DNA of 64,000 nt from Pseudomonas sp. IAC-BECa141. GTDB taxonomy: Bacteria; Pseudomonadota; Gammaproteobacteria; Pseudomonadales; Pseudomonadaceae. Positions within the stretch are counted from its first letter, which is position 1. Each line of letters starts with the position of its first letter. The stretch spans positions 3,782,001-3,846,000 of the forward strand of contig NZ_CP065410.1 of the NCBI RefSeq assembly GCF_020544405.1, in the 5' to 3' direction. Positions 10,733 to 13,872 of this stretch are shown piece after piece. Both the position numbers and the translations under genes were made by a program. Under the pieces are notes generated by a model, which searched no databases, was not told the DNA's origin, and worked only from the letters and a program-made list of their open reading frames with translations.

Positions 10733-11836
10733 ATGCGTGGTCATCGTGGGTATATCAACCTGGGGCTGATGGGCGTTTTGTCCGCAGCGCTGAGTGCGCA
10801 GGCGGCCGATGCGCCGAGCGTGCATGTCTACAACTGGTACGACTACATCGGCCCGAACACCCTGCATGACTTCAAGCGTGACAGCGGTATCGAACCGGTC
10901 TACGACACCTTCGACAGCGCCGAGGTGCTGGAAGGCAAACTGATGACCAGCCGCAGCGGCTACGACGTGGTGGTGGCGAGCAACTTCAGCCTGCCGACCC
11001 TGATCAAGGCCGGCGCCCTCGCCCCGTTGCCCCGCGAACAACTGCCGGGCTGGAAGAACCTTGACAACGATCTGCTCGGCAAACTGGCCAACAACGACCC
11101 CGGCAACCAGTACGCCGTGCCGTATCTGTGGGGCACCAACGGCATCGGCTACAACGTCGACAAGGTGCGTGCCTTGCTGGGCGACAAGGCGCCAGTGGAT
11201 TCCTGGGATCTGGTGTTCAAGGAAGAAAACCTGGCCAGGCTCGGCGAATGAGGCGTGGCGATGCTTGATTCGCCGTCGGAAATGCTCCCGGTCGCGCTGC
11301 ACTACCTCGGCCTGCCGCCGAACAGCACCAACGCCGCGGACTATCAGAAAGCCGAAGCGCTGCTGCTGAAACTGCGCCCGCACATCGCCTATTTCAATTC
11401 CTCGAAATTCATCAGCGATCTGTCCAACGGCAACATTTGCGTGGCAGTCGGCTGGTCCGGCGCGATGCTCGAAGCCAAGACCAACGCCGAGCAGGCCGGC
11501 AACGGCGTGAAAATTCAGTACAGCCTGCCGAAGGAAGGCGCGCCGGTGTGGTTCGACACGCTGGTGTTGCTCAAGGACGCGCCGCATCCGGCTCAAGGTC
11601 TCGCGTTCATTGACTATTTGCTGCGGCCCGAAGTGATTGCGCCGGTCAGCGATCACCTTTCCTACCCCAATGGCAATCGCGCCGCCACGGCACTGGTTGC
11701 CCGGACCACTCGCGACAACCCGGCGGTTTACCCGTCCGCCACGGCGATGGCCACGTTGTACACCCTCGAGCCATTGCCCAAAGCCACCGAGCGAGTGCGC
11801 ACGCGGGTCTGGAGCAAGATCAAGAATGGCCAGTAA
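10733..11836 (+). pseudogene. Polyamine ABC transporter periplasmic binding protein (PotF/SpuE-like), interrupted by in-frame TGA
   Basis: One continuous frame of 368 codons encodes a PotF-like protein. It has a signal peptide ending SAQA, then VHVYNWYDYIGPNTL, YAVPYLWGTNGIGYN, LLKLRPHIAYFNSS, NICVAVGWSGAM and YLLRPEVIAPVSDH. It is broken by TGA at 11249-11251, codon 173. Homologues read CGVA-LD at this point and here TGA is followed by GVAMLDSPSEM, so TGA replaces a Cys codon (TGC). In PotF that Cys pairs with the one in ICVA. Translation would give a 172-residue fragment, and reinitiation at GTG 11255 or ATG 11261 would lack a signal peptide. No permease or ATPase gene is adjacent. Confidence 0.85.
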
Positions 11837-11876: not shown

Positions 11877-12995
11877 ATGAAACCACGTGCCCGCGATCTC
11901 CATATCCGCATCGGCCAATTGCAGCCCGGCCCGCTCAACGCCATCACCGACGTACCCGGCGTACGGGTCGGCCACAGCAACGTGCGCGGCCGCAGCGCCA
12001 GCGGTCGTGACATTTGCACCGGCGTCACCCTGATCGAACCCCGCGTCGGTTCGACCAACGCGCAACCGTGTTTCGCTGGCGTTCATGTACTCAACGGCAA
12101 CGGCGATGCCACAGGGCTGGAATGGATTCGTGAGGCCGGCCTGCTGACCAGTCCGATCGCCTTCACCAACACCCACAGCCTGGGTGTGGTGCGCGATGCC
12201 TTGATCGAACTGGATCGCGAGCAGCAACCGGACGACGGTCGGCTCTACTGGAACATGCCGGTAGTGCTGGAAACCTTCGATGGTCTGCTCAACGACATCA
12301 ACGGCTTTCATGTGCAGCCCAGACATGTGGCCGAAGCGCTGAACAATGCCGTTGACGGCCCTGTGCAGGAAGGCGCGGTGGGCGGTGGCAGCGGCATGAT
12401 CTGCCATGAATTCAAGGGCGGGATCGGCACCGCATCACGCCGATTGAGCAAGGCTCAGGGTGGCTGGACGGTGGGCGCCATCGTCCAGGCCAACCACGGG
12501 ATTCGCAGCGAGTTGCGGGTCGACGGCTACCCGGTCGGGCGTTACATGGAACAGGCGGATTCGCCGTTCCTGCGCGCTTCGTTGCCGCATCCGGGCATGG
12601 GCTCGATCGTCGTGTGCCTGGCCACCGATGCGCCGTTGCTGCCGCATCAATGCACGCGGCTGGCGCAACGGGCGAGCCTCGGTCTGGCGCGCACCGGCGG
12701 CGGCAACGAGGATCACAGCGGCGACATTTTCATCGCCTTCGCCACCGGCAATGATCATGTTCCGCCCGCCGCCTATGAAGGCAAAGGTGCACCGATCTGC
12801 GACGGCCTGCGCATGGTCAACAACGACCACATCAGCGAGCTGTTTCTGGCGGCGACCGAGGCGGTGGAAGAAGCGATCATCAACGCCTTGCTGGCCAGCG
12901 ACAGTACCGAAGGCAACGGGCATTCGGTGCCGGGGCTGGATGCTGCCACCCTGCTCGCAGCCCTCGAAAAAGCCGGCTGGCCGGGCGCTCGCTGA
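11877..12995 (+). CDS. P1 family (S58, DmpA-like) self-processing aminopeptidase
   Basis: 372 residues beginning MKPRARDLHIRIGQLQPGPL, with NAITDVPGVRVGH typical of the DmpA/L-aminopeptidase D-esterase family. These N-terminal-nucleophile enzymes cleave themselves between Gly and Ser. The site here is GMGSIVVCLATDAPL, predicted cut G242/S243, with S243 the nucleophile of the beta chain. VGGGSGMICHEFKGGIGTAS is also conserved. It lies 40 bp after the interrupted binding-protein gene and is likely in the same operon, facing the LuxR gene. The substrate is probably a small peptide or amide; the role with a polyamine-type binding protein is inference. No signal peptide is seen. Confidence 0.92.
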   Translation: MKPRARDLHIRIGQLQPGPLNAITDVPGVRVGHSNVRGRSASGRDICTGVTLIEPRVGSTNAQPCFAGVHVLNGNGDATGLEWIREAGLLTSPIAFTNTHSLGVVRDALIELDREQQPDDGRLYWNMPVVLETFDGLLNDINGFHVQPRHVAEALNNAVDGPVQEGAVGGGSGMICHEFKGGIGTASRRLSKAQGGWTVGAIVQANHGIRSELRVDGYPVGRYMEQADSPFLRASLPHPGMGSIVVCLATDAPLLPHQCTRLAQRASLGLARTGGGNEDHSGDIFIAFATGNDHVPPAAYEGKGAPICDGLRMVNNDHISELFLAATEAVEEAIINALLASDSTEGNGHSVPGLDAATLLAALEKAGWPGAR

Positions 12996-13058
12996 CACGC
13001 TGATGCCCCTGGGGTGGAGGGAGCCGCCCGCGCCTCAAATGCAGGTGACTGACGGTAC

Positions 13059-13087
13059 TTGAGCACATAACCTCACCTTCCTACGAT
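13059..13087 (+). promoter_or_regulatory. Sigma-70-type promoter of candidate small RNA
   Basis: TTGAGC (13059-13064) is separated by 17 bp from TACGAT (13082-13087). Predicted transcription start is about 13094, directly at the first stem of the RNA below. The region lies between the P1 peptidase stop and the convergent TetR gene, with no ORF. Confidence 0.55.
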
Positions 13088-13093
13088 GGAGTT

Positions 13094-13234
13094 ACGCAAT
13101 CGCCTGGGCCACCAGGCTGCTGCGTAGGTGCGGGTGCTCTGAACCCCAATCAAGCCCGCACCTGGCTTCATGCGCATCTTGAGCCTCGCGGGCTCTACTT
13201 CCTCCCCATCAAAGAGTCTTGAGGCTCTTTTTTT
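13094..13234 (+). ncRNA. Candidate structured small regulatory RNA (about 140 nt) with an anti-Shine-Dalgarno loop
   Basis: Four stems follow one another. A nested stem pairs ACGCA/TGCGT (13094-13098/13121-13125) around CCTGG/CCAGG (13103-13107/13112-13116). A perfect 9-bp stem pairs AGGTGCGGG with CCCGCACCT (13126-13134/13155-13163). A third pairs GAGCC with GGCTC (13181-13185/13191-13195). The terminator AAAGAGTC/GGCTCTTT is at 13211-13230 with six T. The unpaired linker ACTTCCTCCCCATC (13197-13210) is complementary to strong Shine-Dalgarno sequences, the likely target-binding seed. No ORF spans it. A promoter and terminator bound it precisely. I do not recognise it as a named Pseudomonas RNA. 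Confidence 0.6.
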
Positions 13235-13245
13235 GTCTCTGAAAA

Positions 13246-13872
13246 TCAGCGTTCGGGTTCGCGACGGATCGAACGCCATGCGGCCTGGGCCAGCAATTCG
13301 CGATACGCCTTCGGGCTGCCCTGCACTCGCCCGGACAGCCACGCCCGGCAATAGCTGTCGGCCTGACCGACGATCAGCGACGGCAACAGTTCGGCCGGGC
13401 ACTCGTTGAGTTCAGCGGCGCGTCCGGACTCGGCCAGCCAGTTGCGCAGGCCCAGATTGCGGGTCTTGTTGCGCTCGGCCAGTTCATCCTTGTGCGGGCC
13501 CCGGGTCACGGCATAACGCGCGTGATACTGGAACCGCGCCCATTCAGGCTGGTTCTCGACCCAATCCACGTAGCTGTAGACCAGCGCCTGCACGCCCTCT
13601 TCGGTGGTCGTCGCCTGCGCCAGATAGGCGTCACGCAGGCGCGCCTGATCCTCCAGCGCGGTGAAGAACAACGCGGCCACCAGTCCTTCCTTGTTGCCGA
13701 AATGGTGGTAAATCGCCCCGACGCTGGTGTCGCACTCGGCACGGATCATTTCGATGGTGGTGGCCTCGATGCCTTGCTCGTTGAACAGGCGCAAGGCCTT
13801 GCGAAAGATGTCGCGCTTGAGTTCGGCGCGGCGGCCGGGGTAGCTGCGTTCGAGTAGATCTGCGGTGTCCAT
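13246..13872 (-). CDS. TetR/AcrR family transcriptional regulator
   Basis: About 208 residues from ATG 13872 (an alternative ATG at 13902 adds 10). The HTH is at about 15-60, with RDIFRKALRLFNEQGIEATT, CDTSVGAIYHHFGNKEGLVA. The remainder is the ligand-binding helical domain. It is divergent from the hotdog gene at 14028. A perfect 14-bp inverted repeat, its likely operator, lies between them. The 3' end faces the candidate small RNA terminator. Confidence 0.93.
   Translation of the reverse strand: MDTADLLERSYPGRRAELKRDIFRKALRLFNEQGIEATTIEMIRAECDTSVGAIYHHFGNKEGLVAALFFTALEDQARLRDAYLAQATTTEEGVQALVYSYVDWVENQPEWARFQYHARYAVTRGPHKDELAERNKTRNLGLRNWLAESGRAAELNECPAELLPSLIVGQADSYCRAWLSGRVQGSPKAYRELLAQAAWRSIRREPER

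Follow-up and report, generated by a model that had tools for sequence, protein, structure and literature searches.

A predicted conserved, structured RNA of Pseudomonas with its own promoter and a putative anti-Shine-Dalgarno loop

A gene-free gap of 250 nt between the stop codon of an S58 peptidase gene (12995) and that of a convergent TetR gene (13246) very probably encodes a conserved, structured RNA with a promoter of its own. The gap belongs to a 64,000-nt stretch of Pseudomonas sp. IAC-BECa141 DNA (NZ_CP065410.1, positions 3,782,001 to 3,846,000), called the window here, and positions 13047-13234 carry a conserved promoter together with a predicted ~141-nt transcript and its intrinsic terminator. 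With lower but still favourable confidence, we propose from the sequence that this RNA is an anti-Shine-Dalgarno (anti-SD) base-pairing regulator, which would represent a new family of trans-acting, SD-blocking sRNAs. An initial annotation of this DNA had put forward a novel structured small RNA at the locus. Re-reading the sequence, we located the promoter, stems, anti-SD and terminator all at the positions claimed. The novelty is supported by the Rfam search, as no Rfam 15 family matches the locus (none reaches its gathering score anywhere in the window, and none matches 12900-13400 at E values up to 10). The claim of structure agrees with covariation in stems 1 and 2, and with a promoter, loop and terminator that are conserved against the flanks, which drift among relatives beyond the promoter and the RNA. 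The features are as follows.

13047..13063, plus strand: upstream element GACTnnYGGTACTTGAG, overlapping the -35 box; conserved, probable regulator site
13059..13087, plus strand: sigma70-type promoter TTGAGC-N17-TACGAT
13094..13234, plus strand: predicted sRNA of ~141 nt; conserved with covariation, start predicted from the -10 box, matched by the covariance model
13094..13125, plus strand: hairpin 1, outer stem of 7 pairs with a variable top; both-side changes in 4 of 7 pairs
13127..13162, plus strand: hairpin 2, 9-bp stem (13127-13135/13154-13162), loop with conserved CUGAACCCC; both-side changes in 6 of 9 pairs
13181..13227, plus strand: 3' domain as a long hairpin (GAGCCUC with GAGGCUC, GGCUC with GAGU/GAGC); favoured in energy over the alternative
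13181..13230, plus strand: alternative, less stable 3' fold, made of stem 3 (13181-13185/13191-13195) and a local terminator (13211-13230)
13197..13210, plus strand: anti-SD seed ACUUCCUCCCCAUC (DNA: ACTTCCTCCCCATC); conserved, unpaired in silico
13228..13234, plus strand: U-run of the intrinsic terminator, seven T (seven U after the stem)

The annotated promoter is in place, with TTGAGC at 13059-13064, a spacer of 17 nt and TACGAT at 13082-13087, giving a predicted start at ~13094. All 52 full-length relatives have the 17-nt spacer. The -10 box reads TACGAT in 32 of these, TAGGAT in 18, TAAGAT in one and CATGAT in one. The boxes are sub-consensus, matching at 8 of 12 positions by manual count, and a consensus promoter scan at a threshold of 9 reported no promoter at the locus. 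Within the upstream element that overlaps the -35 box, 51 of 52 relatives have GGTACTTGAG without change (the exception, L058, has TTGAA), and 50 of 52 keep the GACT. The genome of the window holds one perfect GACTnnYGGTACTTGAG site and no site with one mismatch; allowing up to two mismatches, we counted 13 sites as compared with 49 for the reversed pattern. The element is probably the site of a dedicated regulator, and its conservation raises the question of which signal drives the RNA.

Folding the 141-nt strand, we obtained -60.7 kcal/mol (z -4.4), an energy that none of 200 dinucleotide shuffles reached. For comparison among relatives, the structural alignment and the covariance model were made from 51 distinct sequences, leaving out three truncated copies (L061-L063), a 24-nt match (L064) and one duplicate (L032, identical to L031). 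In the model-fitted alignment, which leans towards the structure, 97.7% of the cells pair. Both-side changes occur in 10 of 28 pairs (four in hairpin 1, six in hairpin 2 and none in the 3' domain), and all 500 shuffles fell short of the real alignment on each of five measures. When the partners were slid against each other, pairing dropped to 30-55%. The initial annotation had staked the structure on covariation, as opposed to free drift of the stems in relatives; stems 1 and 2 do covary, and the structure withstands this check.

We also applied a tree-based null, a purpose-written simulation run on alignment A1, in which we had manually shifted one gap in 17 of the 51 rows; in the model-fitted alignment, without the hand-moved gap, one hairpin-2 pair fails in 14 rows and another meets a gap in 15. 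Under this null, the hairpin-2 pair 43-75 ranks first of 10,878 column pairs with E = 0.115, and no other pair has an E value under 1 when all column pairs are counted. The hairpin-2 pairs 47-71 and 42-76 follow at E ~2. The top five also include 9-13 and 42-71, which fall in the same range but are not part of the structure. No pair of hairpin 1 is significant in this test. Rescaled to the nine hairpin-2 pairs, which had been proposed beforehand from one sequence, the values are ~1e-4 for 43-75 and ~2e-3 for each of 47-71 and 42-76.

Identity to the window was computed for the 25 of 51 relatives with enough S58 sequence, and averaged 61.6% at fourfold-degenerate sites of S58. The corresponding means were 58.8% for hairpin 1, 73.9% for hairpin 2, 83.6% for the 18-nt upstream/-35 segment, 90.2% for the 3' domain and 97.2% for the anti-SD loop. 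A promoter, seed loop and terminator that are kept, a drifting hairpin 1 and compensated stems together make the typical pattern of an sRNA gene. That the segment is conserved DNA that is never transcribed, or the remnant of a pseudogene, is very improbable. Such a reading could draw on three Pseudomonas genomes that have lost the 5' part of the RNA (L061 in G231, L062 in G036 and L063 in G199). In L063, the promoter is directly joined to the anti-SD loop-terminator region with no 5' hairpins; L061 and L062 no longer have a promoter, and their upstream sequence is presumably REP-like. However, compensatory base pairs, promoter spacing and a terminator are all kept, and constraint at the DNA level does not account for this.

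The 3' domain combines the terminator with the candidate seed. The terminator is one of two terminator-like sites in 801 bases, where shuffled sequence gives a mean of 0.4. With the 3' domain folded alone, the long hairpin is lower in energy than the local fold in 51 of 51 sequences, by 3.6-8.5 kcal/mol, and its probability is 0.994 in the full-length RNA of the window. The four successive stems of the initial annotation are present as elements, but the third stem and the terminator merge in the most stable fold. Likewise, the anti-SD is unpaired as annotated, yet not as a linker: in the most stable fold of 51 of 51 sequences, ACUUCCUCCCCAUC lies in the apical loop of the long terminator hairpin. 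Stem 3 and the terminator show no both-side changes and are nearly invariant, so that covariation cannot test them. In A1, columns 103, 138 and 139 have no partner in the local fold and are invariant in all 51 sequences, whereas the adjoining columns 104-106 vary; the long fold accounts for this, although other constraints could do so too. Neither fold pairs the anti-SD, whose mean unpaired probability is 1.00 in silico. Its core CTCCCCATC is exact in 49 of 51 sequences and the complete 14-mer in 37 of 51.

The 3' domain also bears on whether the transcript is a small-protein mRNA or a dual-function RNA, which is hardly credible. A frame of 79 aa does open at ATG 13170. However, this ATG (CATGCGC) is present in only 37 of 51 relatives, and one-base gaps within the 3' domain, at columns 104, 106, 117 and 127 in 14, 2, 6 and 3 of 51 rows, break the reading frames.

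We favour a stand-alone sRNA of ~141 nt, starting from its own sigma70-type promoter, which would carry a dedicated regulator site, as its conservation suggests. The two hairpins at the 5' end, which compensatory changes have preserved, would stabilise and space the molecule, while the 3' domain would terminate transcription and display the CU-rich anti-SD loop. This loop may pair with the ribosome-binding sites of several mRNAs and block 30S binding, probably with the assistance of Hfq on the U-rich tail. The RNA has in silico the attributes of a trans-acting sRNA, namely its own promoter, an intrinsic terminator, a gene-free gap and a conserved unpaired seed. The SD-occlusion reading follows the sRNAs with unpaired anti-SD motifs that are described, in excerpts of PMC10746234, as silencing by occlusion of the ribosome-binding site.

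The two 3' folds allow a different account, in which the 3' domain acts as a terminator that refolds by itself, and terminator and seed form one bistable device. The arms GAGCC, GGCUC, GAGC/GAGU and GGCUC would first make stem 3 and the local terminator, releasing the RNA, and would then rearrange into the long hairpin, locking the anti-SD as a kissing loop. Such an RNA would act as a competitor of the 16S anti-SD, with a weak damping effect on many mRNAs rather than strong silencing of a few, and a dedicated regulator would read the GACTnnYGGTAC site. This account, built on the modelled folds, is unlikely though not far-fetched. If the 3' domain does refold after termination, transcription termination would be linked to seed presentation.

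Another account, which we consider improbable, is that the RNA sequesters a protein, titrating RsmA/RsmE, Crc/Hfq or another reader of the 3' domain with no mRNA pairing. In the 3' domain, the sequence of the stem segments does not vary at all, which is more than pairing alone requires, and no strong conserved mRNA target was found, which both speak for a protein reader. RsmA/RsmE-type titration works through GGA motifs, of which RsmX, RsmY and RsmZ present several unpaired copies, and Crc/Hfq titration, as by CrcZ, works through A-rich repeats. In contrast, GGA is absent from 40 of 51 sequences, including the RNA of the window, and occurs once in each of the other 11, which together with the lack of an Rfam match sets the RNA apart from RsmX/RsmY/RsmZ. 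AAnAAnAA is absent from 51 of 51 sequences, which places the RNA outside the CrcZ type. Moreover, the conserved unpaired loop contains CCUCC, complementary to SD sequences.

Among described regulators, C-rich (UCCC) sRNAs of the Firmicutes such as RsaE and LhrC aim a C-rich loop at ribosome-binding sites. By description, the C-rich loop is a shared feature; the Pseudomonas locus matches no Rfam family. According to excerpts of PMC10746234 and PMC10253847, NfeR1 of Sinorhizobium meliloti, a member of the alpha-r14 or 'cuckoo' family together with CcsR of Rhodobacter, silences mRNAs at translation-initiation regions; the former source describes it as Hfq-independent. The RNA of the window resembles the cuckoo RNAs, as far as these excerpts describe them, in an anti-SD that is unpaired in a hairpin and in a sigma70-type promoter with a conserved upstream stretch. 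It differs in having one anti-SD loop, CUUCCUCCCC, in the terminator hairpin, whereas cuckoo RNAs have three equal CCUCCUCCC in three hairpins. By the definition in the excerpted text of PMC10746234, the RNA falls outside the cuckoo family, as CCUCCUCCC is absent from it, and the cuckoo RNAs belong to another class of bacteria. Within Pseudomonas, excerpts of PMC8395346 describe ErsA and ReaL of P. aeruginosa as repressing mRNA translation by pairing, with ErsA dependent on AlgU and ReaL on RpoD/RpoS; this described regulation sets them apart from our RNA, whose upstream element differs. RsmX, RsmY and RsmZ are structured sRNAs of the P. fluorescens group, according to the abstract of PMC7911923. 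Searching open PMC for the loop in RNA letters, we found one match, which by its title concerns a human microRNA; in DNA letters, none was relevant by title among the matches listed. The consulted portions of the Pseudomonas sRNA and anti-SD literature in open PMC, including PMC7324555, contained no report tied to this RNA, and transcriptome supplements may list it unnamed.

By sequence searches, the RNA family is confined to one Pseudomonas branch in the genomes searched. Performing blastn on 298 Pseudomonas genomes, we find a match in 56, the window's own included (52 full length, three with the 3' part only and one of 24 nt). The covariance model, run on 398 Pseudomonas genomes of which most were also among those 298, matches 73: 66 full length (at least 128 bits), three truncated (46-65 bits) and four weak (20-27 bits). 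Most sampled Pseudomonas species are therefore without the RNA. The genome of the window has one copy by this model, matching genomes in the model searches carry a single copy each, and most copies share a common neighbourhood. A family sample (148 genomes, 19 genera) gave seven matches, three strong ones in Pseudomonas and four others at 20-29 bits, and a class sample (274 genomes) gave five, the window's own and four at 17.5-31 bits. Outside Pseudomonas, no match exceeded 31 bits in these two samples, with the proviso that model searches over more than 40 genomes used stricter filters by which weak matches can be lost. A pattern scan of GTDB representatives, whose pattern was made from the 3' core and cannot find diverged forms, returned 95 stretches. 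Eighty were taken as loci (79 titled Pseudomonas and one Bacteroidales): 75 carry the full RNA, two are cut by the stretch end, two are degenerate and one, the Bacteroidales locus, is without a match. These loci overlap with the genome survey, and the two surveys are thus not independent. The branch with the RNA comprises records titled P. koreensis, mandelii, jessenii, frederiksbergensis, umsongensis and others. An origin from a phage or plasmid was rejected, since neither collection holds a match to the RNA. The work adds an RNA family absent from Rfam 15, with an alignment, a structure and a covariance model, in plant- and soil-associated Pseudomonas.

The gene setting at the GTDB loci speaks to a cis-acting role, in which the RNA would either serve a downstream gene as leader or attenuator, or be an antisense or 3'-UTR RNA of the convergent TetR. 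In the window, the RNA ends 12 nt from the TetR stop, and the two alternative 3' folds recall attenuators. However, TetR was found at 29 of 80 loci and is convergent each time, so the RNA is no leader for TetR; at the other 51 loci it was not found, an absence that is not always informative in stretches of up to 8 kb. The gene downstream of the RNA varies between relatives. By mechanical frames, the longest frame near the RNA end is opposite in strand to the RNA in 33 of 51 relatives and shares its strand in 17; one relative has no such frame. Also, the RNA has its own terminator. We regard a cis-acting role as quite improbable and retain the trans-acting, SD-blocking reading. S58 was found at 51 of 80 loci, in all 51 upstream and on the RNA's own strand. 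At L010 and L017, an additional TetR-like gene, which shares 29-31% identity with the TetR of the window, lies upstream on the RNA's strand; the S58-to-RNA gap of the window is too short for such a gene.

Targets were sought in 14 sRNA-bearing genomes with the patterns GATGGGGAG-N3-12-ATG and TGGGGAGGA-N2-11-ATG. A frame of at least 150 aa follows in 11 of 59 checked pattern rows, some of which repeat one gene. In the genome of the window, the core complement precedes an ATG at five sites, one of them at a credible gene start; the TGGGGAGGA form gave no match before an ATG there. The credible candidate, located at G000:C1:548175 on the minus strand, has a perfect 9-nt seed match and encodes a protein of 217 aa whose match to Kdo/WaaP kinase is weak. 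A homologue is present in 29 of 30 genomes, and a close orthologue (at least 87%) in four, all sRNA-bearing, out of 15 sRNA-bearing genomes searched. The seed site is kept in four of four close orthologues (duplex -19 to -20 kcal/mol) and in none of 25 diverged homologues. As a core target, this candidate was rejected, its site being limited to the close orthologues; the gene and its seed site may have been inherited together.

With up to two mismatches, GATGGGGAGGAAG occurs at 143 sites in the genome of the window, against 63 for the reversed pattern. None of the 30 sites examined among these 143 lies before an ATG-started frame of at least 60 aa, and six of the 30 precede GTG/TTG frames, mostly within longer open frames. 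Seed-complement searches in the window's genome and sRNA-bearing relatives revealed no convincing conserved mRNA target. Within the window's genome, they yield one credible gene start, whose site is kept only in close orthologues. The annotated trans-acting mRNA silencing is consistent with the exposed anti-SD, and this one candidate is what the searches supply for it. These results fit a short-seed, multi-target action, or targets beyond this screen. The frozen loop raises the question of how a near-generic SD complement selects its targets. At L203 (G241) and L209 (G275), GATGGGGAG stands before the start codon of a lipoprotein-like gene, presumably CsgG-like, as a possible further target.

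Some of the weak model matches (17.5-31 bits) were followed further, with alignments inspected for the best six. L300 was rejected as a homologue, lying antisense within a 541-aa frame that resembles what we take to be a chemotaxis receptor. L096 and L098 were rejected for having no anti-SD in a terminator-hairpin loop, and L301 because it aligns without a U-run. In L100 (1497-1610, minus strand; genome G595, from a different family within the class), a long terminator-like hairpin has GCUCUACUUCCUCCCC on its loop side, a run it has in common with the Pseudomonas RNA. The L100 segment is absent from two other genomes of that family, and L100 thus remains a lead.

Elsewhere in the window, a periplasmic solute-binding protein gene (10733-11836, plus strand; SBP_bac_1/SBP_bac_8 on its first part) contains a single in-frame TGA at 11249-11251. 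The frame is open on both sides of this TGA, which suggests a recent pseudogene or an error in the sequence.
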